Positions 3,070 to 38,303 of a DNA stretch of 64,000 nt are shown here, in pieces. Both the position numbers and the translations under genes were made by a program. The notes beneath the pieces are model-generated. The model ran no database searches. It saw nothing but the letters and a program-made list of their open reading frames with translations, and had not been told where the DNA came from. How positions within the stretch are numbered: the stretch's first letter is position 1; each line of letters starts with the position of its first letter. The stretch is from Hydractinia symbiolongicarpus (lineage: Eukaryota > Cnidaria > Hydrozoa > Anthoathecata > Hydractiniidae): positions 13,747,001-13,811,000 of the forward strand of contig NC_079888.1 in assembly GCF_029227915.1 (NCBI RefSeq). The letters are read 5' to 3'.

Positions 3070-3244
3070 CTGTGACGGAGCTGAAATAAAGTAAATAAAT
3101 TTTGGTGAACTAGTAGATCGTGATATTATGAATTTTACATCAAAACTTGGAGGAAGATCAAAAGAAGTCACAACGAAAGAGATTTTATTGTGAAATTACA
3201 AAACAGCAAGATGTGATGACGAAACTGATCTACTGATTTCTTTA

Positions 3245-13742: not shown

Positions 13743-14037
13743 TTACGATTTTTCTTTTGTCAAGAAAAATTGAATAAAAAACAAGACGCATTGTAATTGA
13801 ATTACCATTTTTCTTTTGTCAAGGAAAATTGAATAAAAAACAAGACGCATTGTAATTGAATTATCATTTTTCTTTTGTCAAGGAAAATTGAATAAAAAAC
13901 AAGAAGCATTGTAATTTAATTACCATTTTTCTTTTGTCAAGGAAAATTGAATAAAAAACAAGACGCATTGTAATTGAATTACCATTTTTCTTTTGTCAAG
14001 GAAAATTGAATAAAAAACAAGACGCATTGTAATTCAA
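13743..14037. repeat. 59-bp minisatellite, five copies
   Basis: The motif TTTTTCTTTTGTCAAGG recurs at 13749, 13808, 13867, 13926 and 13985, exactly 59 bp apart each time, with very few differences between units. The array abuts the left (CTGT)n array. Confidence 0.92.
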
Positions 14038-14038
14038 G

Positions 14039-14382
<344 letters not shown>

Positions 14383-17300
14383 AATAATAATAATAATAAT
14401 AATGGTATATTTCGGGCATATCCATATGTTACAATGGCTCTTCATCCCTAATTAAAAACAGCTATTTATAATAAAAATTAAAGAAAATTTTAAAAAGCGT
14501 AATATATATTTCAGTATAAACATTAATCAACTAAAATTTGACTCGAAATGGACACGAGAATAGAGTAGATAGGACTAGTGGAGAAGTGGCTAGAGGCATG
14601 GTGGGATGCGATAGCGTGGAATCGATTGGTGAGAAAACGTATGGACAAGGCAAAATCAACAAATAAACAGATTATATAATAAAGAAATACTATAGTATTA
14701 GTATATGTAATCAAATAAAGTCAGAGACTAAAATGGACTTGGAATAGAACGAGTAGAACAAGCGGAGAGAACAAAAAACAGCCTGGGGGAAATAGTAACT
14801 TGATTGGCTGGAGCTATGCGCATACTGAGGACATACTGGTAGAACCGAGGCTGTTGTTGGAATATATAAGAACAGGACAAAATCAACAAATGAACATGCA
14901 ATCGTAAAGTCGTAAATAAAAGTGAACAGTGTGTGTATATATTGAATGCAATATTTTCTATAAAAAAAAAACAAAAAAAAACTAATGTTTATTTATATAT
15001 TTTGCAAGAGCTCTATCTGATAAATAACATTTAGCTCCGTAAACAAATTTTTTATAAACCACTTCTTTTCGTAGACTGGTGGGAAGATCGTTCAGTTGTC
15101 GACCACTTCTTCCAATAAAAGTTTTATCCGATGCGTTAACTTTGAATTCGGACACACATCTTTCAGAACTTCTTGTCGTTCTTTCTGTTTTCTTCATTTC
15201 CAGCCCTTTCAGGTATGTGGGAAATTCTGTTTCGTGCAAAGATTTGTGAGCGAGTTTCAACATGTTCAAGTTGATTTTCTCTTTGGAGGGCAACCATTTC
15301 AAATTCAAAATATCTGCTGTGGTACAGTAGTGCGCTGTAACAAAGGCTGCTGCACATCTTAAAACTTTGTTGATACGGTTAAGTTTGTAATCTGGTGCGT
15401 TGGAAAACACCACATTGCAGTAGTCAAGTCTAGAGAGTAACAGTGTCTCCGCTAACTGTTTACGTAAGTACTGAGGAGCTGAATGTTTCAATTTGCGCAA
15501 TACAGAAAGCTTACAGTAAGTAGATTTCAAAAGCTGGTTTAAATGAGTATCCCAGGCTAAATGTTCATCAAAATGCACACCAAGTAACTTATAACTTGCA
15601 ACTCTTTCAATAAGTTTACCACAATGTTTAATATTGAAGGTTACATGTGTGTCATCATCTAACTTATGTGTTTGTGACATTCTGCTTCCCGAAAACAGCA
15701 TGGTTTTAGTCTTGCCTTGGTTGAAAGCAAGGTTGTTGTTGGAAGACCAGTCACACAAGTTGTCCAAACGTTGTGTGAGTTGTTCAATAGCATTCGGTAA
15801 TTCGTTTTGTTTACAGTGATCATAGCAAGATGTGTCGTCAGCGAATTGACAAACTGTCCCATGAACTGCATCTTGTAGGTCAGTTACGTACAAGTTGAAA
15901 AGAATCGGCCCTAGAACTGAACCCTGTGGCACACCAAATTGAACGGTCTCCATCGATGATGAACAGTCATCGATTTGAACGTACTGCAATTGATTGTTGA
16001 GGTAGGAAAACATCCATAGAACAGCTGGTTTAGAAAAGCCAAGATGATACAGCTTAGTTATGATAGTTTTGAAATCAACTGTATCAAATGCCTTGGAATA
16101 ATCTAAAAACATTGCTAGTGTCACTTCACCCTTTTCCATAGCTTTTATAATATCATCGCGTATTTTCAGCAGTAAGGTGGTAGTCGAGTGATGCTTTCTA
16201 AATCCGGACATGGTGTCTTTGAGTACATTCTCCGATGAGATGTATTCACATATTTGGTTTGCGATACACCTTTCGTACACTTTAGACAAGGTCGGCAAAA
16301 CTGAAACAGGTCGATACTGATCTGGAGAAGTAGCATTGTCACATTTTGGAATTGGAGAAACCTTTCCGATTTTCCATTGCGTATGAAATTTTTGCTCATC
16401 AATACCAGAATTAATAACATGTGTTAAAGGTGAAATGAGATATTCTAATACAGGTTTTATAAGAGCAACTGGTATATTATCGAATCCAGCGGAACAATCC
16501 ATGCGAAGCGATTTCAGTTCTGTTTCAACTTCCGTATAGGTCACATGTCTTAAATACAACTCTGAACGGTCATTGCGTAGTTGGAAATTGTTAATATGAT
16601 TCAATAAGTCATCTTGTGTAGTTGGAACAGCGTTCAAAATTCTATTCGCGGTTGATATATAGTGATCATTCAGCGTGGTTGGATCCAGCCAAATTTTATC
16701 TTTCTTCGGATTCAGAATACGATGAATAAACTTCCACACATCTGCAGGTCTTTTTGAGCTTAGAGCTTTCTTGAAAAACGTTTTCCTAGTGTGCTTGATC
16801 GTACGTTTCAGGTTATTTCGAATATCTCTGAAATTATCCCAGTCACTATCAGATTGTGTCAGGGGAGCTTTGTGACGCAATTCTCTACATTTGCTTTGCA
16901 TATCATTAATGCGGAGATCTTTTAGCCATGGTGCTGGAGGTCTGGTAACTTTGATTCGTTTCAATGGTGCATGTCGTTCTATACATGAAGATATTAATTC
17001 ATTGAGAATATCTAGTTTATCATCTGCAGATTCTGAAGAATAAACAACACTCAATGGTAATTGCGAAAAGTCAGTGACATAATCATTTAAAATGTAATTC
17101 TTGTAATCACGTATATATTTAAAACGAGGCTGAAACCTTGTAACTCTTGTGTTGATACAGGCATATATAGCATCATGATCACTTATTTCTGGTGTTGGAG
17201 TAACATCACAAAGTTTTACTTTACATTGAGCGTTTGTTATAAAATGGTCAATCAGCGTAGTCCCTCTTCTACTTGGCTTCGTAACATGTTGTACTAAGTT

Positions 17301-18587
17301 ATGAGAGTCAAGAATGTCGTTGTACACTGTTGTGATCTGTGAATTCTCCAACAAGTTGATGTTCATATCACCGGTAATAACAATGTGACCTCTCCACTGA
17401 GACACAACTTTATCTAATATAATATCCACTTTACTGAGCCATTCAGCTTTGCTTGTATCGTCAAAGTTCGGTTGATAAAAAACACCCAACAGAATTTTGC
17501 TATGTCTATTGCGACCATTTATCTCTATCCATATGTGTTCAAGTTCGTTATGTAAAGTTGTGATGTCATTTCGTAATTTAAAGTCAATATCATCTTTAAC
17601 ATACGCTGCCACGCCACCTCCTCGCCTTTCTTCCCGGTTTTTATAGACTAGCTTGAAACCTGGTAATTCAACATATTCGATAATGTGTTTATTATTTTTC
17701 AACCAAGTTTCAGACATTGTCATTATATCGAAGTTATATGTATGGGCAAATACTTGAAATTCTGCGAAAGAAGATATCAAGGATTGAGTGTTCAAATGAG
17801 ATATTTTTAACAAATGTTTGTTTTTGTTCAGCGCTTCAAGATGGTAGTCAGTCATTGATACGTCGTTCTCACTTTCTACATAGGATGTATTTAGTGAAAC
17901 ATTGAGAAACGGGAGAACAGTATGAAGACATCGATCACACATTGTTTCGTACGGTACTCGAGAATTCGTAACCAAGTGTTGTTTATTTTGGCATACTGCA
18001 TGTGAAACATCGAGGCATTGACTACATAATAGACGTTTTTGGTTACATCTCACTACTTTAGAACAAGTACTGCATTTAGGAGCGACGAAACCAGGTCCTG
18101 GATTAACTTCAATATCACCATCAAGAATAAGATTAAACGCACTGCAATTTGAATAATACAATACCCGTGATTTCCCTCTTTTAAGATGTCTCGCTTGGGT
18201 ATTCTTTGGTAACAACGGTAATGAAGTTTCATAATGTACTTGTTGATCATTGGAACTAATTACGAATGTTGTTAAAATTAATGTGTAAAATAGAATTTTT
18301 CTCATATCACCTGGTTTCTATTAGATGGAATGTAAGAAGCTGGTGTAGAAAATTCTCCCGCAATCAATTTTCAGAGCAACGACTTATTTTGTAAATTCCT
18401 TCCAAATTATTAGTCAATTCACATAATGTCTTCTTGGTTATCATGTATCAATAACAAAATAAATCTGTGTTAAAATCTGTAACAAATATGAGTAAAATCT
18501 TGGTTTATCATAACTTTATCAATAACTTTTATCAACAATCTGTTTATTCAACATGCTGTCGTCGAGTCAATAAATTATGATTACCAA
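14383..18587 (-). mobile_element. complete non-LTR retrotransposon (LINE, L2/CR1-like), APE-type
   Basis: The element runs from about 18587 (5' end) to a (TTA)n tail at 14383-14402 (3' end). It has a 5' leader of about 280 bp, one intact 1107-aa ORF and a 3' UTR of about 580 bp ending in sequence that includes CCATTGTAACATATGGATAT. It lies exactly between two (CTGT)n arrays with the same repeat strand, which suggests insertion into one pre-existing array. The intact frame suggests recent activity. A 3' fragment of a related element is at 45047-45125. Assignment to the L2/CR1 group rests on the endonuclease-RT order, the PHD-like finger, the absence of an RNase H domain and the short-repeat tail. 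Confidence 0.85.
14982..18305 (-). CDS. LINE polyprotein: signal-like leader, 2A-like peptide, zinc finger, APE endonuclease, reverse transcriptase
   Basis: 1107 aa from the ATG at 18305. Residues 4-18 are hydrophobic, like a signal peptide. Residues 64-71 read DIEVNPGP, a match to the D-x-E-x-N-P-G-P 2A motif, which makes ribosomes skip the Gly70-Pro71 bond, so the leader would be released from the rest. A Cys-rich PHD-like finger follows (about 78-126). The APE-type endonuclease spans about 166-390, with HLNTQS (171-176), SETW (198-201), GDMN (312-315) and SDHD (375-378). The reverse transcriptase spans about 600-880, with YSKAFD (736-741), GVPQGSVLGP (791-800) and the catalytic FADD (821-824). 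All catalytic motifs seem intact and there is no internal stop. By homology it nicks target DNA and copies its own mRNA into the break. 2A-like peptides at LINE N-termini are known from other animals. Confidence 0.95.
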   Translation of the reverse strand: MRKILFYTLILTTFVISSNDQQVHYETSLPLLPKNTQARHLKRGKSRVLYYSNCSAFNLILDGDIEVNPGPGFVAPKCSTCSKVVRCNQKRLLCSQCLDVSHAVCQNKQHLVTNSRVPYETMCDRCLHTVLPFLNVSLNTSYVESENDVSMTDYHLEALNKNKHLLKISHLNTQSLISSFAEFQVFAHTYNFDIMTMSETWLKNNKHIIEYVELPGFKLVYKNREERRGGGVAAYVKDDIDFKLRNDITTLHNELEHIWIEINGRNRHSKILLGVFYQPNFDDTSKAEWLSKVDIILDKVVSQWRGHIVITGDMNINLLENSQITTVYNDILDSHNLVQHVTKPSRRGTTLIDHFITNAQCKVKLCDVTPTPEISDHDAIYACINTRVTRFQPRFKYIRDYKNYILNDYVTDFSQLPLSVVYSSESADDKLDILNELISSCIERHAPLKRIKVTRPPAPWLKDLRINDMQSKCRELRHKAPLTQSDSDWDNFRDIRNNLKRTIKHTRKTFFKKALSSKRPADVWKFIHRILNPKKDKIWLDPTTLNDHYISTANRILNAVPTTQDDLLNHINNFQLRNDRSELYLRHVTYTEVETELKSLRMDCSAGFDNIPVALIKPVLEYLISPLTHVINSGIDEQKFHTQWKIGKVSPIPKCDNATSPDQYRPVSVLPTLSKVYERCIANQICEYISSENVLKDTMSGFRKHHSTTTLLLKIRDDIIKAMEKGEVTLAMFLDYSKAFDTVDFKTIITKLYHLGFSKPAVLWMFSYLNNQLQYVQIDDCSSSMETVQFGVPQGSVLGPILFNLYVTDLQDAVHGTVCQFADDTSCYDHCKQNELPNAIEQLTQRLDNLCDWSSNNNLAFNQGKTKTMLFSGSRMSQTHKLDDDTHVTFNIKHCGKLIERVASYKLLGVHFDEHLAWDTHLNQLLKSTYCKLSVLRKLKHSAPQYLRKQLAETLLLSRLDYCNVVFSNAPDYKLNRINKVLRCAAAFVTAHYCTTADILNLKWLPSKEKINLNMLKLAHKSLHETEFPTYLKGLEMKKTERTTRSSERCVSEFKVNASDKTFIGRSGRQLNDLPTSLRKEVVYKKFVYGAKCYLSDRALAKYINKH

Positions 18588-18893
<306 letters not shown>

Positions 18894-20258
18894 CGTTTTG
18901 TACATTTTTATATTAAATAAAAGAACATTATACCAATTTCCAATACAAACACCGACAATAATGTTTTCTAGTTACACATGCATGTTTCGTAACGCTCAAG
19001 TTTCTATTCTTTGTTTTTCAAAAAAGATGGAAGGACCTGCCAAAAATTTTCAGGGGGTAAATGTGCCCATTTTTTTCAATTTTTGTTATTGTTAAAGGCT
19101 GCATGTAATGCTGATAATGCAGTTTCAAAAACAGTTTTGTTCAAACAACCACTTATAAGTCAGTAGCTTCTGCAACACATTTATGACCTACCATAATCAT
19201 AAGAGTGAATTTTATTTATATAATATTAATACCCCCGTTTTACCAACTTATCACGACACGAACATTATTCGATCTTTCGGTCACGCATTTTAATGGTCCT
19301 CCATAAAATTTCAACGTTACATAAAATTTGTTTGCATTTGTGCGCAAAAAAGCGCGTGCGGAGAAAAGATATTGCTGAATTGTGAAATAAAAATAAACTG
19401 GCTTGTAAAGTAAGAAAGATTTTGTACTGAATTAAATGATAAAGTTTTTTGGCGAAAAGAATGTAAAAAAAGCAATTAAATATTTTTTTTATTTCTATAA
19501 AAAGAAAATATTTTGCTAAGAACGTTTCTCTGAGTCAGTAAAAGACACCTCGTCACTTTGCATCATTATTTATTTCTCCCTTGTGAGGCACAAGAGGTTC
19601 GAAGCCGCATGGCTGTAGCTTTGTAAAGTCTTTTTCATGAAGAGAATTATTCGATTCTAAATTTTCTGAGTTATAATCTTCGTTATTATTACAAGACGTC
19701 TTATCAGCGAACAATGTAAACAGTAAGTAAACAAACTTTTAGCAGGCGTGCTGCTTAGCTCATGGACTTTCTGCACGAGGTGACGTATGCTCATTTATTC
19801 GGACCTAGTCCCCTAGACTTTTCGTGACCTTCAAAATTTATTTGAGATTGAAGATGTTTACAGACCCGAGTAAGGTATAAATAAAGTTTATTTTGACAAA
19901 TTTATGTAATGTCTTATCGAATAAATTTTTTTCAAATATTTTGTTTTCAACTATTTTTCAGGGCTACTTAATTTCGCCGATCGTAATATATTACATTTTG
20001 CAGGTAATTATCGCTGTTTTAAAAACATTTTCTCGAATGGGGTAATGACATATTGTTTATAAAACATACGCAACAATACGCTCTTAAAGATACTTGGCCA
20101 TGCAGTTCGATAACGTTTGTAAATGTAAATGAAATTTTCCTATTATTGTCTACGGAGTAAAATATAGTAAAATGCAATGAGGAGGGTTATCTCTCAAGGT
20201 TAACCAAATGTTATTTTAACTGCATGTTGAAGAGTTGTCAACTCGGAGGAGGGTTAAG

Positions 20259-22704: not shown

Positions 22705-25700
22705 TCAATTACAGTACAAAGTTTCTTGTCGTTTTATTGGTGTTGTCAGTTCGTAATTATTACCGTTTTCTTCTTCAGTCTTTTTATATTTTTCATTCTC
22801 AGCATTGTTTTCATCACTTGCTGGTGAACTTTTCCATTTTTGAAGCATGTTTTGAACGTCATCTATCATAACTTCGTGTGTAACTTTTTCAATTTCACAT
22901 TCATTGCCAGGGATATCTTAAAAAAGCGTTTCAAGCAAAAATTATGTAAAATGTTTCAATGAAATATCGAAAGCCAATAACAAGTACGAAAAGACATTAT
23001 GATTAACGTCTTCAGATTTGTTTTACGTGTTTTGAGTTTATTATAAAAAAAGAATGTTGGATATAGCAAATAATCCGTACCGATTTCAGACTTCGCTCTT
23101 TTCCGTCGACGATATTCGTAAATAAAACCAAGTCCACTAATTAATGCTATTAGCGAAACACAAGAAATTATTGTTGGTTGAAAAAGACCAGATGATGGAG
23201 AGAAAATATTTCCAGGTTCATACTCATGCTGGGATTTCTATAAGATAAATCACAAATGGATGACGTTGCTGTTTTGAGAGCAAAGAAATAATTCATGCAA
23301 AATTTCTGTTATTGATGTGAGCTCCATCCTTACACATTCTAAATAACAGTGTAATACATTAAACTTACCACGCCATTGGTTACATTACCCATGCAAGTTT
23401 GTAGGATCAGTTTGTTACTCTTTATAAATGTGGTCATATATTCGAAGTCTATCTTACGCAGCACCAGCATCCCATAGCTTAGCTTTTCCCCGCTATAGGT
23501 TACATCTGTCGCATAATACTCATCATATAACTTGGATGGATGAGTCTCGTAACCAATTCTTGTGTGCTTATCCAAGAAAAAACCCTAGGAACAATGAAGT
23601 TGTCAATCAAAGTGAGATTGATGTTGATACTTTATTTCACAGGCTTGTCTTAATCACATCTATCGTCGCATGAAATTAATGATTTTAGAAAAAGAAAAGC
23701 CTCGAAAACTGTTTGTATACTCCCTGTTATTGTCTTTTTTTTCTTTCTTTATTATCCTTAGACCGGCTGTTACTTACAGTCTGCTTCGCCTTTTGAAGGT
23801 TTGATCCTCGTGTTGCTTATAAGAGGTTGTTTGCAATACTCAAAGAAACGTGTGTATGTAAGAGCATTGAATTGTAAATGATTTGTTAAAATTATACTGA
23901 AAGAAATTTATGGTCTGCATCTATAAATTTACCAGCTTTAAAATTAGAGTGTAGCAACGAGTTGTATGTCGTGCGAGATACAAGTCCATAATGCCGGTTA
24001 TTTATCAATGGGTGTGGCTAAAGCAAACCAGATTGAATAAGACGTAGTAATTAACGACGATCTTAGTTAAAATATCCCGAAAAATGGGTATCATCTAGTT
24101 CTCGCGTTCTATCACATTCCTACAATAACTTAAAAAACTTACCATCTAAATTATCATCACTATCCACTTTCTCAATTATTGTATTTATATCTGAAAACAC
24201 TAGAATGAAGACAATATATAAGTGAGGGCTGTGGTAAAATGTATAGGATGAGGTCGATATTACAGAACATGAATGCGTCACCTTCGATTGAAGTTCCACC
24301 TTTATCAACCACAAACGTTGAATCAAGTAATCTATCTGGTAAGACGGCAACCTTTGAAAAAGACATTAGCAGTGTAATTATTGCTGCTAATTAACAAGCG
24401 GCCGATCGTAATTTTTAACTAATACTCCTTTGTTGTTTCTGACAATACAATTGCTTTTGTGACCTCTCCTTTTTTTATCTTGGAAGTTTTAGCATGCGAA
24501 TGCAGTTGTGGTTATACCTATGTGACCAAGCCTATATGCAGAAAAAGGAGGACCAACAGAAACTGAAAAAGACTTTTTTAAACTATTCTTTTTCTCTTTT
24601 TAGCATTTTTCTTTTTTCTTTTAGTTGATTTCTTTAATCACCTTTTAATTTTCTCCTTGTATGTATTCACATGAATAACCAATTTCTTCAATGCAGAATT
24701 GACATAATCCGTTAAACTACAACCCATCTACATCCAAAGCAGCTGCAAACATGTATTTATACTGCTACTTTTTATTGCATTTGGTTAAAATATAGAAACA
24801 CGCATAAAAACTCACTATTTTGTTTCCTTAAGGAATAAAAACTATTCCTAAAGGAAATAAAATTTTGTTCACTCAAAAAATTGCGTACTGCAGGAGTCTA
24901 AAAATTTAGATTAATTTTGCTTGTAGAGAGTCCTTTACTAAATACGTTTTGTCTAAAATGAGCTTTTCACACCAAAAGTTATATTTTTAAAAAAAATGCA
25001 AATGGATCGCAAAATTCCTGCTAGAAAGAAATTCTAGTAGGAAACACTTTGAAGAGACATTCAACAAAAAAAACGCACTCATGTCGAATTCACAGGTAAA
25101 AATAAAAAATGTCAAAATGAATTTCAGCAAACACCACTTCTGATTTGAAAAAATGTAGTCAAAGGCTGTGCACATGATTTCACATGAAAAAAATTTCAGA
25201 GCAACTGAAAATGTATTAGGCCAAATGTTAGTTAAGCTCTACCGAACACATTTTAACCCATAATGATACCCTGTATAATATAGCACTGTAACACTGTGAA
25301 TTTTTGTTTTGTGCCCCCAAAATAATATGTGAAAAATGATACTTTCACTACATTTAGAGCTAACACTTTGGTAATATTCGTATTCACTACCATAAACTGT
25401 AAATTTTTCCCGCTTTGCTTGGAGTAAAAATACAGACTGCCTACTCAAAGTTTTGAATTGCTATGCCGAGTCCATAACATACTCAAAAGCTGGCTTCCTA
25501 GGCACATTCTCAGAGTAAAAAGCATTCGAATCACGAAAATTTTCAAGAATTGTACAAAAAGAAATCAAAACCCTATAAAATATATATATATATATATCGT
25601 AGCCTTATTCATACAATAATCAGATATATAGGTGGGTAAGCGCCCAGATGCTAAAAATAGAATCATAAAAACTCATTTCTAATATCACTCAACTTAACAG

Positions 25701-28700
25701 TGCAGTTCGAACACCAACTTAGCCTTAAAAAAATTGCTACGCCTCAATTTTGCATTGGAATAATTTTAATCTGTAAAGTACAAAGTTTCGACCGCTGCGA
25801 AATATAAAATAAAATAACATACTGTGGTTAAAATAAGCAAATTTAATGGAAAATAACTTTTTAAACAAATTTAGTGACTTTAACTGTTTTCGTCAAATAT
25901 TATCGGTTGCCAAATTTTTCTTATGTCAATGTACCAAAATTACTATAGCTATCACAAAATTGTAAAAATGGAACTTGCCTAAATTTATTCTTACATTTTA
26001 TCAAAATTAAGAACACAGTAATACAGTGTAACATGCTATTATATATATCCCTTCCTAGCTAGTTATGTAATATTTATAAACAATAATTTCTAACGAAAAG
26101 TCAAAGCCAGTCATTATATCATTGAAGTGTGTATTTTATTTTCAGTCGATTTCCTCTGTGCTCTTTTTTATATAACTAGTTAGCTATACTTTACAAGTAA
26201 ATCCTTTATTAAATGCTCTTCCACGTTAATCCATGTCAAACTTGCAGATCCATATATAACTAGCTAGCTATAGCTTACTGTAAAAAAACTTCCTTTAAGT
26301 CTTTCTATAGCTAGCTGTAATTTTTATTTCTTCTTGCCAAAGTGCACTGATAATGATAGAATAGTGTTTCTTTTTAACCATTACTTTATTCCTCACAACA
26401 CAAAATGTATGGTATATGTAGCTTGCAACTTCAGAAAGCTAACCCCTAAAACCAACATCAACAATATGTCTTCTCTTGGCTCTCTATAAAAGTCAGTAAT
26501 TTAAGTTTTCTTCGATTCCTACATCTTACCCATGTCAATATACCACAAAGAGGGTTAGCAACACCATTTAAACGTGTTATTAAAAAGCAAAACGTCAGTT
26601 AAAGTGAAAAATCAGTTGAAGAAACATCAGGCAGGATTTTGCATTTTTGCCTCTTTTCGCAGCACTAACCAGAATATTTGTGAAAAACTGACTATGAACA
26701 TTATTTGGGCTATCGACACAAATGAAAACAAGCCAAAAATTTGTCCCTACAAAGCGCTTCGCTAGCGCCCAGAACTGCGCGGTATGAAACTCCGTAATTC
26801 CTCATCTGTAGAGTTTGTGACGTAGAACCAAAAATGCGGTCCCTTTCCAACCTCGTCCCCAGGGTCTTGTGGCCCCTGAGCCGTTATTACGGAGTGGCCA
26901 ACAATGACCGTGGAACAGGCTGGTCATGTGACACAATAATGCCCAGATATACTGCGCATTTTTAAAATTCCAAAGATAACGAGATGCAAATTTGTCGCTC
27001 GCCTACAAGCAAGATGGCGGGCGAAAAGAGACACAGCGTTAAAGAAACTATTTTGTCGATAAAAGCAAAATTTTCAGAATATTACTGACGTAAAGTCTAT
27101 TAATCTCGCTTAGCTTGATTGTTCAATATTGGCGAAAGGCTTTTAATTTGGAAAATGTTTTGAAAGTTTGTTTCCATAAAAATTCATGAGCTCTAGGTAG
27201 CTAGCTAGCTGGGCTGTGTATTATATGTAGCTGCCTTAGCTAGCTAACGTGATATCCTGAGACAGCTTTACTCAACCACATTTATAAAGGACATATTAAA
27301 TGGCTATTATTTTCCAGGTAGGTGATTTTGTTAAGAACACGTTAGAAATTGTAGGAGAAGGTCTGGGCACTCTGGTTGCACACATTTTTCTAATATGCAC
27401 AACAAATTTTCCTATTTTTAAAAACGAAACTAAGAATGACAGGTTGTAGTGCTAAATTTATGGATTATTCTCGGATACGGGTTAACATTCTTGACACTTT
27501 CTGTTGTTCTTAATTATATTTTGTAAAAGGGACAATATTTGATATCATTAAACGACATAAAGAATGGGTTAAGTTAAAGCTGGTTTATTATATACGTGCA
27601 GGGTGTTAATTCTAAAAATGCCATTTGTACTTGGCCACGATATGTAAAAATATGCTGGTGGAGCATAATCAATCACTGACCAAAAATAAAAGTAGGGCAT
27701 TTATTGACCTTAGAAGAATTATTTGTTCAAAAACCTTACTTGTTTGTTCATATTTGGTCAAGATTTAGAAGTTTTGTTACAAAAGCCTTATCAGCCTCAT
27801 TTAAATTGCTCAAATTCTGTAAAATTTTTAGCCAACAAAATGTTTCTCAGAAATGTAACAGATAATTTAGCTAATTTGCCCACATAAGATTTAAGCAGAA
27901 CACAGCCGGCTTGTCATCACAATATTTATAAAAAAAACTCAAACATTGACTAACAACATTCAGTTTTGTATCCAGGTAGGGTAATGACTTTTAGAACATC
28001 GATATATGTGGCTACTAACTATTAGGTAAATGTTCACGTCATTTAGACGGTATACGCTCTAGCTAGCTAGCTAGCTACCAGTAGTTCTGCAGGATAAGAC
28101 AAACACCGCACATATATCAATTTAATTATCGAGATAAATTTGCTTCATATCATGTTGAACTAAAAATGGTATCTTTTTTTAATATATTTCTCAAAAACTA
28201 GCTTCTCTAAAGTCAGTGCTAAACCTTAGCTAGTATTTTTATCCACTCCAAAAATAAATCGACCGCCATATTTGTTGTACTCTTGTTTACATAAAACTCC
28301 GATATCGATACTCCGGCGAGGGGCAGAAATAAATTTTTGCAGGGCAAGAACTGTTCATAAATTATTTTTTTGGTATAATTATCTTAAATTATAAGCGATC
28401 ATGTGACCAGCCTGTTCCAGGGCCTTTTCGCCGCTATCAACTTATCAACAAGGCAAAATGCCCTGGGAACGAGGTTGGTCCCTTCCTGCAAAATTACACC
28501 CCGCCGTGGTTTTACACAATAACTTATAACCTAAGAGCCACATTTTTTTTCCGTTTAAAAAATACGCCCCCCCCCCCCCCCCATTTAAAAAATCCGGTCC
28601 ACCCCCATTTAAAAAATACGGTTCCCCTATTTAAAAAATTCGGTCCCCCCATTTAAAAAATACTGTCCCCCCATTTAAAAAAAACAGTCAAATCAAATGC

Positions 28701-31700
28701 AAATCCTTCAATTGTTCTATGCTGATAGTTTCAGTAGCAGAGTACACCAATGATATGTTAAAAGTGGAAAGTGACGATGAAGTGATTGTGATAAACGAAG
28801 TAAGTTTTTCTGTTGCATATTTTTTTATTTCTTTACTAAGGTCTTGGCTATCTGCATGTCAAAGTGTTATTGCATTTTAGAAATATCACCAATATTTCTA
28901 GCGAAAATTGTTTTGTTTACATTTGGATCATCAACGGTGATGAATTTATTTTAAAAGAACGAAAAAACAGAAGAGTACGGAAGTGTGCAGGCTGCAATCT
29001 TCCCTTCAACAGCGAAATGCTGTGTCTTATGACGACAGAGCTAAGGCTCATTAAGGGCGAAATAATGCCACATGGGAAAAAATGTACAAACCTACACTAT
29101 CACCTGGGGTGATAAATGTTTAAAAAAAAACAAATGTATTAATTGTATTATTATTGTATTAGTAAAGTATTTTTTACACCTCATTTATTATGTCATAACG
29201 CATGATAATTCTGTACAAGTTGCTAAATTTAGAACCGCATGTACTATCGGATGTCGGTATTCTTTGATATTTGCTTAAATATTGCGCTGAATAAAATTGA
29301 AACGTTATAATTTTACTTGTATTCCGTTAAGTGTTCTATTTGTAGTAAACTTGATGTATAATTTATCGAATAGTTCACCATCTTAAAAGGCTTTATGTGA
29401 TGACATTAACATTTCAGATCCAAATACAAAGTTAGCATTAAGAAACATTTGGTATCTAAATGTTTTAACTATCATGATTATTAACAACTATCATTTAAGC
29501 CGATATTTCATCAGGTTGAGTATTACCGGTTAAATATTTGTGATACCCTGGTTAGTGACACTATGCCATGTGAAAATTGTGAACCGCTAAAAATGAAATC
29601 TATGTATGAACGGAATCGTAAGATGCTATGTTGAACCAACCAGATAAATTGAATGCTTCTATCAAATTTACTTCACCCGAGCGTATCAAATTAATTTGTA
29701 AAGTCAACGTCTAAAATGCAAACAGTTGGAGCAGCAACTTTCTGGTATGAGAGAAACATTAGAGAAAGAAAGTGAACTAATAAATCCTGATCTGAGTAAT
29801 AATTTTAAGACATTATTCTCTGCATGTGATCAACAAGATGTTCCAAATCCCATGAAATTATTCTTAGAAGAACAACAAAAGTATGTAAATCCTTCGTGTT
29901 CTTACCATTCAATGATATTCAAATACTGTCTTACGTTATGATTCCAAAACTGGATGTGAAATATTAGTTATACCGAGTTTAAGTACCTTACGAAATTATA
30001 AAAATTATATTCTTCACACCTGTAGTTTTAACCCTGCTGTATTACAGAACTTAGGAAAAACACAACTTACAGGAGCATCTTGTTTGTAATGAAGCACTCA
30101 GGAGAACTTATTGAATTTATTATTCTGGGTGATATGTATACTAATTTTGCAACTATAGAGAATGTCGGACAACTAGCTACTTGTGTACTTGTTTTTCCAC
30201 TCAACAGCATTGTATAGCTATACATTGTCTTACAGCTTAGCCACATTTGCAACAACTAGTGCCACATCCTTTCAAATCATGCCAATTTTTTTTGGAAAGC
30301 TGTATGTTACCTTAAAGGAATAAATTTGAAAGTTACTGCAACTAAAAAAGGTGTGCAAAAAATTTGTAGTAATAATAAGATAAGAAATAAATAACTGTTC
30401 TAAAACAATTATAATAATAAAATTCTGGACTTCATTAACTTTTTACATTAACGTTTTTATAATCAATTAACTTTTGGCAAAATCTCAATTGTTCTATGCT
30501 GATAGTTTCAGTAGCAGAGTACACCAATGATATGTTAAAAGTGGAAAGTGACGATGAAGTGATTGTGATAAACGAAGTAAGTTTTTCTGTTGCATATTTT
30601 TTTATTTCTTTACTAAGGTCTTGGCTATCTGCATGTCAAAGTGTTATTGCATTTTAGAAATATCACCAATATTTCTAGCGAAAATTGTTTTGTTTACATT
30701 TGGATCATCAACGGTGATGAATTTATTTTAAAAGAACGAAAAAACAGAAGAGTACGGAAGTGTGCAGGCTGCAATCTTCCCTTCAACAGCGAAATGCTGT
30801 GTCTTATGACGACAGAGCTAAGGCTCATTAAGGGCGAAATAATGCCACATGGGAAAAAAATGTACAAACCTACACTATCACCTGGGGTGATAAATGTTTA
30901 AAAAAAAAACAAATGTATTAATTGTATTATTATTGTATTAGTAAAGTATTTTTTACACCTCATTTATTATGTCATAACGCATGATAATTCTGTACAAGTT
31001 GCTAAATTTAGAACCGCATGTACTATCGGATGTCGGTATTCTTTGATATTTGCTTAAATATTGCGCTGAATAAAATTGAAACGTTATAATTTTACTTGTA
31101 TTCCGTTAAGTGTTCTATTTGTAGTAAACTTGATGTATAATTTATCGAATAGTTCACCATCTTAAAAGGCTTTATGTGATGACATTAACATTTCAGATCC
31201 AAATACAAAGTTAGCATTAAGAAACATTTGGTATCTAAATGTTTTAACTATCATGATTATTAACAACTATCATTTAAGCCGATATTTCATCAGGTTGAGT
31301 ATTACCGGTTAAATATTTGTGATACCCTGGTTAGTGACACTATGCCATGTGAAAATTGTGAACCGCTAAAAATGAAATCCATGTATGAACGGAATCGTAA
31401 GATGCTATGTTGAACCAACCAGATAAATTGAATGCTTCTATCAAATTTACTTCACCCGAGCGTATCAAATTAATTTGTAAAGTCAACGTCTAAAATGCAA
31501 ACAGTTGGAGCAGCTACTTTCTGGTATGAGAGAAACATTAGAGAAAGAAAGTGAACTAATAAATCCTGATCTGAGTAATAATTTTAAGACATTATTCTCT
31601 GCATGTGATCAACAAGATGTTCCAAATCCCATGAAATTATTCTTAGAAGAACAACAAAAGTATGTTAATCCTTCGTGTTCTTACCATTCAATGATATTCA

Positions 31701-34700
31701 AATACTGTCTTACGTTATGATTCCAAAACTGGATGTGAAATATTAGTTATACCGAGTTTAAGTACCTTACGAAATTATAAAAATTATATTCTTCACACCT
31801 GATAAAGTGTGTCAATTGCCCTCTCTCTTCCCCATAGTTGTTTTATACATCCCGCGGTGTCTACTTCGCATATTCTTAAAACATAATTTGTTCACGCCTA
31901 TTTTTTATTTCAACAAGTCACTCGTAGGTATTTTCAGGCTTGCTTGTATTTATTCGTATTAACTCGTAGTCTGTCTCGTATTCATTTGTAGTCACTTGTT
32001 GTCATTAGTAGGCTTACTCGTCCACTTGTCAATGTTCAGAGTGGACTTGCATCTCAGGTTATTTGGTAAAGTCCAAATTTTTAAAATGTGCTTATTGTTG
32101 CTGATGTCATTTTTTTACGAATTTCGGAGTCTTCGTTGGCCCCAACGTGTGTGTGCGTGCTAGAGAATGTGATTAGCAACCTTTCAACGCTGTCTGCCTG
32201 ACCTACGTGTGCGCAAAAGTTGCGACTTCGCATTGACTGTTTGACATTTTTGTCCATATTTGAAAAAACTGCCTTTAATATTTTTTTCCAAGATTGTGGT
32301 TCCTGGCACCTCTTTTCTGACGTCACACTCAAGAATTTTGTCTACAGACAAGTGAAGCCTTGTAAGGTCACTATACATTTTGACAAACAGTTTTTTTAAT
32401 ATTGCAATGAATATTTTAATATTTTTGTTATAAATAAAAAAAATTACCAAGTCTCATTTTCATTATTTTCTACTACATAAAAATCTTTAAATCAGCCAGA
32501 ACTATTGCTGCAAACAAAAATTTTTATTTTCTTTCAAAGAGAAAAGACATTGGTTCACACAGATTTGTTCAAAATTTAACAGAACATGTAATCATGGTGA
32601 AATAGACGATTGCCATAAATAAATCTAATATGCACATATTGTTACGAACAACATAGCGAAGTTGGTGTAGTGGTAGCCCATTTGACTTGTAATCATAAGG
32701 TTTAAGGTTCGGGTCCCCACTCCGGCGCACTTTAAATGCAGTGTTGTCAGCCCATTTGGTGGCTTTTATTGACCGCTAACCGTCTTGTGTGGCAGGCAAG
32801 CAAGTTAGAGCAACGGTATAGTTACAGACGGAGGGGAGGAAGAGCCAACCGTTAGGATGGAATCCCCAACGAAAAATGGGTCAAGTTAACAAATGTTGGT
32901 CATCCGGGGTTCGACTTAACCAGAGTTTGTTATAACAAGTATTAACGAAAGTTCAAGGGACCCAAGAAAATGGTTCGAGATAATGAAAGTTCGAGTTACC
33001 CGCTCTTCGAGTTATCGGAAACTAGCTGTACGTACCTTTTGACCACTCATGGATGCTACTGGTAATTTTGATGATTCAGTAATTGCAGACGTTAATGCAG
33101 CAGTGAACATGGAGCAAATGGTAATACCCATAATAATCCAAATGACGGCAAATGCACGTGCCTGTGCTGATTTTGGGCTTTTGTCGCCATACCTAAGTAT
33201 CAAAAACAATATAAATCGATCATTTTGGCAGTAAGCAACCTGAATCGCTGATTAAAAAACTCGCTCGTTACCAAGGAGTGTAATGGCTTGGTTCTAATTT
33301 AAGCGCAAAAGAAACGAATGAGGAAAAAAAAGTAATATGGAAGAAAAAAAATGTTTAAGTTTCTCAACACTGTTTTTGTGAAAGAAATGAGAAAAAATAG
33401 AAACAGTTTTAGTTTCAAAACGAATTTAATTAGCAACTCCTTAATTGGCAACTAAAAATCCAGCTTTTAGCTTTGTTGACAACTTTGCTCATCAAATTAA
33501 TAATTACCGTACCGCCACACTAGACTGGAACGGTTACGTACTTCACTAGCCTCAGTAGCAAGAAGAGCGACGAAGAAAGGGTTTGTTTTAAAAAGGTTTG
33601 TTATAAAAGTCGTCGAACAATTATGAAAGATTAAAAATAGAAAATTAAAGTTGCAAAGTATGAAAATTGAAACAAAAGTACTGAACACTGTCGTAAACAT
33701 TGTTTTGCACTATCTTATTTTGATGATAAACACTTGTAAGAAAGAAGTGTCGTGTAACAACAGATTTGAAATATTGAAATTTGAGGTGAGAAAGAAAATG
33801 TAAATACTAAATGAGAATTACTAGGTCAATAAATTTTCCTTACCCTACTGTTGTCATAGATATGAAACTCCACCAAAAACCCTCCAACACTCCATTAACA
33901 AAAGGCCGTGGAAACTCTTCTTCGTTATATCGAGTGTCCTAAAAAATTTTTACTTACACCATTTACATCACCTTACATCAGTTATCTAAAACACCACAAA
34001 CCGAAAATATTGGAACCCGGCTTTAATGTTACTAAAATAATAATAAAACAATAAAAAAGTAAACGAATATTTTAAGTATCTGTGGTACTCGAGCTCAATT
34101 TTGGTATTTGACAAATATAACAATGCTTCAATTCAAAAAATACAACATTCTAAGCAGAAAGCAATCACAGTCGATGAAATTAAATGAAATAATATACTAA
34201 GCATCTGTATTTTAGCTGTATTTATTCTACGTGTAAACAGAGCCACAAATTATACATGTTAAAAGTCACACTTACACAAATCCAGCCAATTGCTCCAGCT
34301 ATGAAGGCCAATAGAAGTGTGATTAAAAATAACGGCCATAAGCCTAAGCAAGCCTTCAGCAGCGCGTTGACTGTGTCCGAGTTCTTGCGTTTCTTGACGA
34401 AATAATAGCCTGTTTGAACATCGATAAGTGGTACGAAATGGTAGCCGTATACCTTGTCAATGTTATACTCAGCCAGAATTGGGAATATAAAACGAGAGTT
34501 TGTAACTGCAGAAGTTTGTAACAAATCATGGAAATTTTTCATTGATGTAAAGTTACTTTTGTAGTGCATTCCTCTGCAAATACCACAACAGCTGCGAACG
34601 GCAATTTCTAGCATTGCTGAAAAGAAAAGAAAACAAAATAGATTTGAAAAGGCATTGTTGTTTAAAAAGTAAATTCTTGAAGAGTAAGCCAAGGGAACGT

Positions 34701-37700
34701 CTGTTTTAGAATTTACGTACAGGGCACTTTGATTGTACACATAAAATTTGGGACTTATGCAAAAATACCACCCGTTAATACAAAAACGGAACCACTTCAA
34801 TGTTGTTTGATTTTGTTCTTAAAAAGGGAGTTTAGCTACACTGTAGCTACATTCAGGTTTTAGCTAGCATTTATTAGTACTAACAAGTCAAGTTTAAATA
34901 TAACCCTTTTTTCTATTTAACTAAGAAAAAGTCAAAACCTGAGAGGGAGATTACATCACAGTCTCCTACCCTATAGCTAAACATATTTAAGTACACCTGT
35001 GAAGAAATACCATTGTTCATCATGTTACCCAATATGGCAATATTTTTTTGGTATGGCCAAATTGGTCTCTCACAGCCTTTTTATAGGCTAAATGAAATAT
35101 TGCTATTGCAAAATTAAAAATTCTCGCAATTTTTCAAATTTCTCGCTTAGAAAATTTTAGTTTTGAAACAAATGTCCTAGGAAGGAAGTTTTTCGTTTTC
35201 ACGCTATAGTCATAAATAAGCTATGCAACAACTTGTTTTTTGTTTTCTTACAAATAATGTTTGTATTAAATAAACTTTCACGAATTAAAACAGAGTAGTT
35301 TATACTACTCTCAGTACTACAGGTGAAACCCCAATTACTGTTAAATTCGGAGTAAGAACATTGGACAGCTAACCACTTTGGTAACTCATCAAGACTCTAT
35401 CATCACATTATAAAAAGTTTACAAAAAAAAATCCAAACTGATTACCCTGCAGTCATTTTGGAATCAGGGGTATAAAAAAACGTGCTTTCCATTGAAATTA
35501 AAAGTTTTGTAGCATCAGTAAAAGTTTTAATATTTCCTTGAAATTTCGTTTTTATACTGGTTTGATAAAATAAAGCTAATTTGATTTCCTTCACTTTTAT
35601 CATAGCTCATGCGTTCCTAATTTTGCTATTTTCGGAGACGCCATTAGGTTATCGGCGTCTCCGAAATAGGCAAAAAATAGTTTTACAAAGATACCTGTCC
35701 AGAAAACATTAGAAGAATTCTCACTAATAAATTAAGTCAGATAGATAAACGGTTCCTAAGTTTCGGACTAAATGGTTTACCCAGCCCAGAGAAACTGGGA
35801 ATACTTCTAAACCACAGTGCCAAATATTCAATCTAATTCCGTGTAAATACAAGGTTGTGAGAAAGTTATTGTTTTGTGGTCCACCCGTATCTGCAACAAG
35901 ATTTGTCTGCACTATTCGACCAACCTGGTGTCACTCACGATTAATATTTAAACACCCATGGCAACTTATTTATTAAAACATGATAAACAACCTTATTTGC
36001 TTTGACAAAGTAACAATAAGTTTTATCGTAAGTCTCGGGATCGTTAGTTTTGAAAAAAGATATTACACCTTTAATGCTGTATTGCTAAGTATTCCACAAA
36101 ATATACCTGTACTAAGTGCCCTACCTAGATGTGTAACAGTTTACCCTGTACCAAGTATTTAACCCGGAATCTCCCGCTCAACAACAATACAACAAATTAC
36201 CTTATCATTCCGAGAACTTCATAGTGAATATTTACTTTTTACTAGATCTCATTTGCTTTTTATAAAAATCCTGAAAATCTGCAGAAATTATTTATGAAGA
36301 ATAGGTTCACTGCGACAACATATTTGGCCAGCATAGAATACCCTGCATACCTAGCTAGCTATATACTGACGTTTTGACTGTCCACTGCTGTAAGAAAATT
36401 GTAAAATACTCAAAAAGGTCCCTATATACCTAGCTAGCTGTCTTATTATTAAAATGGCAGAATCCTTTTAAAATTATGCTAGCTAGGTAGCTCCTGACAT
36501 TTTTAACCTTTTTGAAGAAAACAAGATAAATTGGTTGTCACAGAACCTATTCTCAAAATAAAGATATTTCCGGATTTATTTTAATGACTTTTAGAAGTTG
36601 TTATAGGCATTCGTGTTAATTTCGTGACCTTTATTAATTTCCTCGAATAAACTAGGTTTTACCAATTCATTTCACTAACACAAAAATTTAGCAACTCAGG
36701 ACCAGAATTATAAAAGCATTTGATTTGACAAAGACAGTCACCACAAAATATTTTTATTACAAAATAAAGCTTTTTTGTTACAAAAAATTCATTTAGCATA
36801 GGCACCAAATTTTTGTGTACAAATGAGCGCATTGGAGTCTCTCCTTGTAGCTATGTAAACTCTTCGACCTTTGTACTTTCGCTCAATCTTTATGTATAGC
36901 AAAACTCGCATTTTCTTTTTACAAGAGGATTTTATTGTGTTATATATAATCGTTGGTAACTAAAATTACTGAGCATATGTCACATTGTCTGCGATTATAC
37001 TAATCATCCCAATAACTAGTAACTCTTGCTTTCTCCTGTTTTCTTCAGTCGTAAACTTATATATTTCGAATTTGTTTTAATCTGATGAAAATTCAATAGT
37101 TATGAAACAATAACTATTCTGCAATGTCGTATTCACTTGTATGCTTTTCACCCATTTTATTTTTATGTAAAACACCAAACCTTGTGTCAACAGAGTTGCA
37201 TTTTTCAAGTTAATAGTTTACCAAAACTAGCTATTCTTAAAAGGGAATACTTTCTTGATAAGATTGATCATGATAACCGCGTCTTTTTAAATTTAGATAA
37301 AGTAAATACTTATTATCACGGTAAATTAAACGCCCCTTTTCAAATAAACGCCCCTGGTTAAACAAATGCTTCTTTTGAAATAAAAGCCGAGAGTAAGATC
37401 TTTAAAATCGGGAAGAATATCTTTTTGTAACAGAGTAAAAATAAATAAGTTACTACTAAAAGATGAATATTTTTAAAAAAATGTATCTGATATAAATCTG
37501 TTACTCATAATACTCGGTAACCCGTGGATAAATCTACAGGTTCGTCCGTTCCTTATATACCGCTATCCCGCATCCTTGTCCCTCTTTTAGCATAAAGTAA
37601 TAAACCTTATGTGCGATTATAATAGCGTTTTTGATTACAAAACCCATGTTTTTAAGTTGGCTCAAAGACAAATGCAATTATTTAGATATAATAGTAACGG

Positions 37701-38303
37701 TCTTGTGTAACTGTGCTAAAAATATTGCCCGAGGTCATCAGTATCGAGTTTGCAAGGTCATTACGCTGACCAATGGTAAATATGTCTCGATATGAAAATG
37801 TGACGTCACGTCTGTTGTCATGGTGACTTATCGGTAACAGGTGGACCCATCATGGCTTCTCAGAGCCCCCCGCTCTGAATATAGTTAATAGAACGGTAAG
37901 TACCGTTAATGATTTTGGGGTAATCGAAACGTTTTATTAGCGTTTTTGAAACATAAAGGTTGCTCGCATTGGTGTTCTATACTGCAGGGTGTTAAAAAGG
38001 ACGGAAGGAAATCGTAATGTGCCGCACAACAGTGACGATGACAGTCGTGTAAAACAAAGTAGTCTTTAGAACAGTATACTTACGTGGCATAAGTTCCGAT
38101 GAGTACGGTGGTATATTAATAGTTGAAATGTTGAAGATATCCTGACATACAGTTACATTGGAACAAGTTGGTGGCGATGTTAACGAAGAACCGGGACCGG
38201 AACATTCCCTCATATCAATCGTTTTCAAGCATTTTTCGGCCGCCTTCGTGTACCGAATACGTGTGCAGAATAATACAAGTAACAACAGATTTAATCGAGA
38301 CAT
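22705..38303 (-). CDS. ionotropic-glutamate-receptor-like channel with a TVGYGD potassium filter, ten exons
   Basis: Exons: 38303..38084, 34616..34276, 33938..33844, 33192..33036, 24351..24282, 24190..24143, 23815..23778, 23584..23369, 23237..23081, 22916..22705. All phases agree and give 517 aa. Residues 1-21 are a signal peptide; there is no amino-terminal (LIVBP-like) domain. S1 starts near 58-67 (NISTINIPPY). M1 is about 166-187. The pore loop is GFWWSFISMTTVGYGD (207-222), with the filter at 217-222. The M3-like helix is 232-256, ending TAALTSAI (249-256) where canonical receptors have SYTANLAAF. S2 runs from about 272 to 400, M4 is about 416-435, followed by RRRKR and a short acidic tail. 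Order and M4 follow animal iGluRs, while the filter is that of K+ channels, as known in cyanobacterial GluR0 and rotifer AvGluR1. Expected to be a ligand-gated K+-selective membrane channel. The aligned S1 site for the ligand-binding Arg is Ile126. Least certain are exon 7 (acceptor ATAAG) and the exon 5 donor (GTGACG). Confidence 0.83.
26738..26800 (+). repeat. dispersed repeat, copy 2 of 2
   Basis: Matches 13252-13311 (see that entry). It ends about 45 bp before the inverted-repeat element at 26847. Confidence 0.55.
26847..28478. mobile_element. 1.6-kb inverted-repeat DNA element, non-autonomous
   Basis: The left arm CCAACCTCGTCCCCAGGG (26847-26864) pairs with CCCTGGGAACGAGGTTGG (28461-28478). 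An inner block, TGGAACAGGCTGGTCATGTG (26911-26930), pairs with 28403-28419. The spacing of outer and inner blocks is similar at both ends, so the arms are about 80 bp and diverged between the blocks. Only a 24-codon frame starting at an ATGGCGGGCG context (27014) is seen inside. Class and target duplication unresolved. Confidence 0.6.
28551..28688. repeat. C-rich minisatellite of ATTTAAAAAATACGGTCCCC units
   Basis: Five to six units alternate TTTAAAAAA with runs of 4-18 C. The period is about 20-28 bp, varying mainly in C-run length. It ends 20 bp before the first copy of the 1.3-kb duplication. Confidence 0.85.
28708..30022 (+). pseudogene. transposase-like gene fragment, copy 1 of a 1.3-kb duplication
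   Basis: Three coding-like blocks. First, 28720-28799 starts at an ATG and ends at a donor-like GAA|GTAAGT. Second, after TTTTAG, 28879-29112 encodes a C-x2-C ... H-x-H motif (KCAGC ... LHYHLG) that looks zinc-binding. Third, 29715-29940 encodes a Glu/Gln-rich helix, then SYHSMIFKYCLTL. A one-base shift at 29940 restores a frame reading GCEILVIPSLSTLRNYKNYI, which resembles the central part of P-element/THAP9-type transposases; that family call is from pattern memory. The shift, and blocks 1 and 2 that do not join in phase, point to a decayed gene. It lies in intron 4 of the receptor-like gene, on the opposite strand. Confidence 0.5.
30023..30484. other. spacer between the two 1.3-kb copies
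   Basis: 462 bp, present once and not related to the duplicated unit. No coding potential seen. Confidence 0.5.
30485..31801 (+). pseudogene. transposase-like gene fragment, copy 2 of the 1.3-kb duplication
   Basis: Nearly identical to 28708-30022, offset about 1777 bp, with very few substitutions. One extra A in the GGGAAAAAA run at 30851-30858 shifts the end of the Cys/His block, so it reads differently from copy 1. The frame break before the NYKNYI block is shared, so that decay came before the duplication. Confidence 0.55.
32656..32900 (+). mobile_element. tRNA-derived SINE
   Basis: The head (32656-32729) has an RNA polymerase III A box TGGTGTAGTGG (32663-32673), a B box GGTTCGGGTCC (32706-32716) and an anticodon-like loop with TGT (Thr) at 32688-32690. 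Acceptor and anticodon stems pair poorly, so it is not a working tRNA. Unrelated sequence follows (to about 32900) instead of a pol III T-run, as in SINE bodies. The 3' end is a guess. It lies in intron 4 of the receptor-like gene. Confidence 0.65.
32905..33015. repeat. TTCGAGTTA/ATAACGAAAGTTC repeat fragment
   Basis: Several copies of GTTCGA(G/C)TTA and its kin, in the style of the AATTCGAAC subrepeats of the MITE at 59814. It could be a decayed relative; ends not defined. Confidence 0.35.
34617..38083 (-). other. 3.5-kb intron 1 of the receptor-like gene
   Basis: The intron starts CCAC|GTAAGT at 38083 and ends CTTTTCAG at 34617, phase 1. Joining the two flanking exons gives a continuous S1 start (ELMP-P-MLEIAV), so no extra exon is required. 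It carries a copy of the dispersed repeat (near 37516), AGCT repeats near 36350-36490, an AAACGCCCC motif repeat near 37320 and a CRE-like TGACGTCA near 37801. No other gene seen. Confidence 0.55.

Follow-up and report, generated by a model that had tools for sequence, protein, structure and literature searches.

The window analysed here, a stretch of 64,000 nucleotides of the hydroid Hydractinia symbiolongicarpus (C14:13747001-13811000 of the 480.9-Mb assembly that was also searched for further copies), carries on its minus strand a gene that we consider, with a rough probability of 0.78, to encode a Hydractinia member of a cnidarian family of putative tetrameric ligand-gated K+ channels, in which a clamshell of the ionotropic glutamate receptor (iGluR) and GluR0 type is combined with a K+-channel pore and an M4 helix. 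The finding is the family rather than the copy in the window. The translated protein has the order signal peptide, S1, M1, TTVGYGD pore, M3 (FTAALTSAIT), S2 and M4, and matches the Pfam families Ion_trans_2 (1.5e-16, residues 173-257), Ion_trans (8e-12) and Lig_chan (1.5e-7, residues 172-260). Each chain has a single filter and the Ion_trans match is limited to the pore part, an organization that is neither two-pore nor voltage-sensor. The predicted structure of a relative matches the ligand core of GluR0, glutamate receptors and Kv/KCNQ pores and retains the clamshell, and in the model of the relative P0005 an M4 helix lies at residues 415-443. A hydrophobic tail helix corresponding to M4 was found in the window protein and across the family (63 of 64 rows, the remaining one being too short to test), and in none of 79 bacterial open frames (80 loci, one frameless) or 16 bacterial tree rows. 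About 55 residues separate the start from S1, and no Pfam match to an amino-terminal domain was obtained at E up to 1.

These observations agree with an earlier note on the same DNA, which had named all of the above segments, an iGluR-type S1/S2 fold with a K+-channel pore, and an eukaryote-type M4 topology lacking an amino-terminal domain. The note had proposed a Pfam search, in which both Lig_chan and Ion_trans_2 were matched, and had named as its counter-case a two-pore K+ channel lacking S1/S2; the single filter and the clamshell in the model of the relative point away from the latter.

In the mechanism that we propose, an inverted K+-channel pore (M1, the TTVGYGD loop and M3) is inserted into an extracellular S1/S2 clamshell of the iGluR/GluR0 type, and four such subunits would assemble. 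Ligand binding would close the clamshell and pull on M3, opening a K+-selective pore, and the resulting K+ efflux would hyperpolarise the cell. Both the K+ selectivity and the inhibitory action are predicted from sequence features.

Gene structure

The gene extends from a start codon at 38303 to a stop codon at 22705, where the earlier note had correctly placed it, and is read as nine exons with GT-AG borders throughout and matching phases at seven of eight junctions. Its features, all on the minus strand, are as follows.

Exon 1, 38084..38303, minus: start codon, signal peptide, cysteine-rich N-terminus and beginning of S1; amino-terminal domain absent
Exon 2, 34276..34616, minus: remainder of S1 (CCGIC, FIFPIL, FVPL) and M1
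M1 helix LWPLFLITLLLAFIAGAIGWIC, 34276..34341, minus: position counted from the translation; helix in the model of relative P0005
Exon 3, 33844..33938, minus: pore helix; its border falls within the selectivity filter (TTVG|)
Exon 4, 33036..33192, minus: remainder of the filter (GYGD), M3 inner helix (FTAALTSAIT) and beginning of S2
Intron 4, 24352..33035, minus: 8.7 kb
Exon 5, 24282..24351, minus: S2 (VAVLPDRLLDSTFVVDKGGTSIE)
Exon 6, 24143..24199, minus: S2 helix (VFSDINTIIEKVDSDDNLD); junction with exon 7 one base off frame
Candidate 29-nucleotide exon (GSNLQKAKQT), 23778..23806, minus: between exons 6 and 7; poorer family fit than the direct join
Exon 7, 23369..23584, minus: S2, with DGFFLD (acidic ligand-site position) and LSYGMLV
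Exon 8, 23081..23237, minus: end of the S2 linker and M4 (PTIISCVSLIALISGLGFIY, about 23177-23118)
Exon 9, 22705..22916, minus: cytoplasmic tail and stop

Read in this way as 507 residues, the protein scores 458.6 bits in a single continuous alignment (profile positions 11-461) against a profile of 99 relatives, namely those of at least 400 residues among 120 listed, with the window protein itself excluded; the exons are therefore read as one gene. Over 294 residues, exons 1-5 match exactly isoform X1 of the NCBI H. symbiolongicarpus gene LOC130625765, which runs from exon 5 into intron 5 and ends at 330 residues. Exon 9 gave no match in tblastn with 187 relatives. A search for a separate C-terminal gene, using residues 269-507 against 164 candidates confined to 0.55-1.75 times the query length, likewise gave no match, a weak negative given that known relatives were missed as well. 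Intron 4 contains a perfect direct tandem duplication (window 28708-31197, spacing 1777-1779 bp), which is either a recent tandem duplication or an assembly artefact.

The exon 6/7 junction

The window copy is a weak example of its family because of the frame at the junction of exons 6 and 7. The plain join reaches a stop after NLDGFFLG, five residues into exon 7 (GFFLG), which counts against an intact channel gene, and the direct join used above needs one base fewer than the sequence has. When exon 7 is shifted by one base the reading continues as NLDGFFLDK and yields the 507 residues, LDGFFLDK being the family's own motif. Sequence error, a recent mutation and unseen splicing each fit these data; the window copy may thus be intact, if the sequence is in error or splicing was missed, or it may recently have become a pseudogene or frameshifted allele.

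The second of these possibilities, that the gene is a recently broken copy (a pseudogene or loss-of-function allele) of a functional family in which the one-base shift in exon 7 truncates S2 and removes M4, deserves attention but appears rather unlikely. Canonical splicing does lead to the stop at GFFLG, and the NCBI isoform X1 has only 330 residues; however, no stop interrupts the roughly 193 codons of exons 7-9 when they are read in the family frame (a probability of about 3e-6 given the stop density of the window), family motifs persist in these exons, and the homopolymer run at the beginning of exon 7 is a plausible place for a sequencing error.

Unseen splicing could take the form of a tenth exon. 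Ten phase-consistent exons and 517 residues had been claimed before; nine exons with seven of eight phases agreeing were found here, and 517 residues are obtained with an added 29-nucleotide exon (23806-23778), which restores the phase and with which 1525 + 29 nucleotides give exactly that length. This is probably the tenth exon of the earlier note, which either missed the frame problem or used an extra exon that the family profile does without. Among lengths of 5-159 nucleotides between exons 6 and 7, eight phase-fitting candidates were found, and those of 29 and 38 nucleotides were scored. An intact gene with one of these two as a tenth exon is improbable, even though both lengths restore the phase and the donor is GTAAGT: the direct join (458.6 bits) scores above the 29-nucleotide form (453.8 bits) and the 38-nucleotide form (448.7 bits), and a glutamine takes the place of the family's hydrophobic residue before DG. 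Fifty random insertions of ten residues at the same place gave 446.8-456.1 bits (mean 449.4), of which two reached 453.8 and 33 equalled or exceeded the 38-nucleotide form. The 29-nucleotide exon is thus poorer than the direct join and better than most random insertions (48 of 50), and on these scores the family profile favours the direct join. Skipping of exon 6 together with a microexon was also tried and rejected (436.1 and 441.7 bits, below the direct join).

Distribution of the family in Cnidaria

The filter motif TT[VI]GYG is present in 118 of the 120 listed relatives (the best 120 of 413), the other two having TTVGYR and TTLGFG. All named eukaryotes among the matches listed in this search and in one with a coral query are cnidarian, namely Hydractinia, Clytia, Hydra, Rhopilema, Nematostella, Actinia, Actinostola, Acropora, Montipora, Stylophora, Pocillopora, Porites, Oculina and Dendronephthya. 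These genera we take to represent Hydrozoa, Scyphozoa, Hexacorallia and Octocorallia (for Hydractinia, the placement as a hydrozoan cnidarian was checked). Each search is represented by its best 120 matches and its sensitivity depends on shared words, and the list implies no absence from other phyla. Bacterial GluR0-type proteins rank below the cnidarian matches listed for the coral query, at 2e-24 and weaker. Many of the closest relatives are metagenome or transcriptome proteins, and the family is mostly labelled uncharacterized; two Stylophora members (P0134 and P0163) are entered in the database as 'Potassium voltage-gated channel subfamily F member 1' and as 'contactin-3-like'.

Some members have extra domains before S1 instead of the usual amino-terminal domain. 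These are CUB and Ig domains in P0111 (scanned) and in P0138 and P0141 (precomputed domains), and FN3 domains with or without TSP1 in P0163 and P0159.

Copies in the Hydractinia genome

The 507-residue query gave 79 matches in 54 clusters (3.5-kb linkage) in the Hydractinia genome; three of these belong to the window gene itself, and several resemble ordinary K+ channels as judged by eye. At least 24 single open frames, apparently intronless and with a K+-type filter, were present in the 40 stretches examined: the filter is TTVGYG in 20 and TSVGYG, STVGYG, TTVGFG and ATVGYG in one each, and two of the frames are short (269 and 341 residues). All copy counts are lower bounds. Eight of the single frames are located on C13:7.74-7.85 Mb, and another three on C5:21.36-21.37 Mb. 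An alignment of the single-frame copies with the window family extends over 359 columns (5.4e-49). Moreover, in all nine intron-bearing paralogues examined (L039-L047) the match breaks at TTVG|YGD, as at the exon 3/4 border of the window gene, the break positions being those of tblastn segments rather than splice sites. Together with the occurrence in corals, sea anemones, jellyfish and hydroids, these copies bear out the earlier suggestion that the receptor might be widespread in this lineage, and their number suggests a chemosensory or a peptide/small-molecule receptor repertoire.

One further locus, L009 (C1:21976900-21981200), is by eye the likely counterpart of Hydra LOC101238360 (P0101); it has a long charged C-terminal tail, and its frame is split before MTTVGYGD.

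Ligand-site residues

In the window protein the S1 column of the ligand-binding arginine holds an aspartate, as does the acidic position of S2. The arginine is present in 16 of 16 bacterial rows, both eukaryotic iGluRs and all six rows of the coral clade, in three of the 20 rows of the window clade, and in none of 17 other rows (mostly anthozoan, one Hydra) or 21 single-frame copies. An arginine within two columns of this position occurs in three of the 21 single-frame, two of the 17 other and five of the 20 window-clade rows. The acidic position of S2 is kept in 13 of 20 window-clade, 17 of 17 other and five of six coral rows, and in five of 21 single-frame copies, 15 of which have asparagine. 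Since the carboxylate-holding arginine is missing from the window protein, from another 16 of the 20 sampled sequences in its clade and from every one of the 21 single-frame copies tested, the ligand of the window protein is, judging by these residues, probably not glutamate. Amino acids would be the expected ligands for the coral clade and something else for the window clade. Acropora LOC114971148 is an example of a coral protein in which the arginine is present.

That most rows other than those of the coral clade have lost the arginine, and that S1 is shortened in the window clade, would also suit a channel that has kept its filter and works as a ligand-independent background K+ leak, or that is not K+ selective. 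We regard this as doubtful, since the window protein and most of its clade still have the acidic position of S2, and the model still shows the clamshell fold.

Profile comparisons of the fold

With single sequences the best 60 matches in the PDB are K+-channel pores only, and the hydrozoan-weighted profile A1 and the single-frame profile A4 (which includes the frame L015) also gave only such pores among their best 60, with no S1/S2 structures. A coral-type profile built without bacteria matches Synechocystis GluR0 (1II5) in S2 at 1.1e-8, behind K+-channel pores (best 2.7e-12). A mixed profile of 39 cnidarian-type and 11 bacterial rows, whose bacterial rows help its matches, found Nostoc GluR0 at 1.6e-28 and full-length NMDA1 over S1-M1-P-M3-S2-M4 at about 1e-21. 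Compared directly with bacterial GluR0, the single-frame copies align over S1-pore-S2 (286 columns, 6.6e-39 in a profile-profile comparison), and profile A1 over the pore and S2 (223 columns, 1.6e-41). A divergent K+ channel of the K2P or Kv type joined to unrelated extracellular parts, which is what the single-sequence PDB matches would suggest, is therefore very improbable, being contradicted by the predicted fold (models of relatives match GluR0 and glutamate receptors over S1/S2) as well as by the 1II5 match, the 286-column alignment and the one pore per chain.

Phylogeny and origin

Trees were computed with FastTree and a fast IQ-TREE run with SH-aLRT from 82 sequences and 397 columns, with 42 representatives of the 187 relatives, 16 bacterial rows and, as eukaryotic iGluRs, only NMDA1 and plant GLR3.4; CUB, Ig and FN3 forms were cropped ahead of alignment. 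Omitted from the sampling were L005 and L008, which duplicate L009 and L012, as well as L009 itself (split frame), the intron-bearing L039-L048, L030, L032-L036 and L038 (Kv-type frames by eye), the two short single frames and L015. All 64 cnidarian-type sequences group in a single clade (support 0.992 with FastTree and 100 with SH-aLRT), within which the 21 single-frame copies (0.986; 97.4), the window clade of 20 (0.977; 94.8) and the coral clade of six (1.0; 100) were recovered. The bacteria do not form a clade: eight of them, with NMDA1 and GLR3.4, lie nearer the cnidarian branch (node support 1.0, and 0.228 inside; long branches). The phylogeny with GluR0 that had been suggested returned a monophyletic family that does not pair with NMDA1 or GLR3.4. 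Because the bacteria are not a clade and the family stands apart from both eukaryotic iGluRs, the deep order is not fixed by these trees.

Two other origins were considered and rejected. Against a recent bacterial transfer, the 80 prokaryotic loci listed out of 537 confirmed are 25-36% identical, with no close donor among them. For a viral origin, ten loci on viral contigs matched (30 stretches, 27-48%), and the two inspected are GluR0-type frames. These two, L049 and L050, come from contigs of 264 kb and 40 kb that are classed as viral, and have the S1 arginine motif, TTVGYGD and S2; the frame of L050 begins inside S1.

Neighbouring features

Elsewhere in the window, a 1111-residue open frame of the long interspersed nuclear element type, encoding an endonuclease and a reverse transcriptase domain (RVT_1, 2.6e-31), lies at 14982-18317 on the minus strand. 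It is flanked on each side by a long tetranucleotide array of the CTGT type, at about 14010-14455 and about 18540-18912, both recognised as repeat frames. A Claudin/PMP22-like open frame (PF00822, 2e-8) lies at 2311-3195 on the minus strand.

Relation to known receptors

Animal glutamate receptors are thought to derive from a bacterial binding protein fused with an inverted K+-channel pore. A family found across Cnidaria that has the bacterial filter and the animal M4 would offer living material for testing this fusion step. If the proposed function is correct, animals with nerve nets could inhibit cells directly through a ligand-gated K+ channel, and, as the genes are present in a laboratory hydroid, the idea is testable.

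The insect ionotropic receptors, which are derived from iGluRs and expanded, with many copies lacking the glutamate-binding arginine, offer a parallel; unlike the window family they are cation channels without a K+ filter, and no relationship is implied. As a tentative extension, for which the odds are somewhat less than even, Cnidaria would possess a large class of K+-selective receptors with the GluR0 filter and clamshell, an M4 and no amino-terminal domain, and Hydractinia would have expanded it into dozens of arginine-less inhibitory chemosensors, many of them encoded by single frames and arranged in tandem clusters, a K+ counterpart of the insect receptors.

In the literature consulted, K+-filter receptors are reported only from bacteria and one rotifer. 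A glutamate site combined with a K+ filter was known only from bacteria as far as Ger et al. 2010 could determine (PMC2950845). The portions consulted of Ramos-Vicente 2018 (PMC6307864) mention neither potassium nor a selectivity filter, those of a 2025 eukaryotic phylogeny (PMC12226733) name GluR0 once, as bacterial, and those of PMC6385376 and PMC7947827 contain nothing on cnidarians with a K+ filter. No description of a cnidarian K+-filter receptor was found in the open-access literature searched, a scope that leaves most subscription journals outside.

Two K+-filter receptors allow a direct comparison. GluR0 (Synechocystis Slr1257) is a K+-selective glutamate receptor from a bacterium (Chen et al. 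1999, as cited in PMC12226733 and PMC12332018); GluR0-type proteins share with the window family the order S1-pore-S2, the GluR0-type ligand-binding fold and the TxVGYG filter, but they lack M4 and keep the ligand arginine, whereas the window protein has M4 and lacks the arginine. AvGluR1 of a rotifer, for which a legend of PMC3483616 gives the accession ADW94593.1, bears the K+ signature (PMC12332018, PMC11479355, PMC3483616) and, compared by its description in these papers only, resembles the window protein as an animal protein with a K+ signature in the filter and M4 topology, and differs from it in being described with eukaryotic iGluR architecture and an amino-acid ligand profile.

With the animal iGluRs (AMPA, kainate, delta, NMDA, epsilon and lambda) the window protein shares the S1/S2 clamshell and the M1-P-M3-M4 order, but TTVGYGD replaces the Q/R/N site and there is no amino-terminal domain. 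The FTAALTSAIT of its M3 presumably corresponds to a part of the SYTANLAAF motif of animal iGluRs. The earlier note had expected such a protein to fill a gap between GluR0-type and animal receptors; the trees place the family in a clade of its own, separate from the only two iGluRs compared (NMDA1 and plant GLR3.4), while the expectation holds for the architecture, in which an animal-type M4 is combined with a GluR0-type filter.

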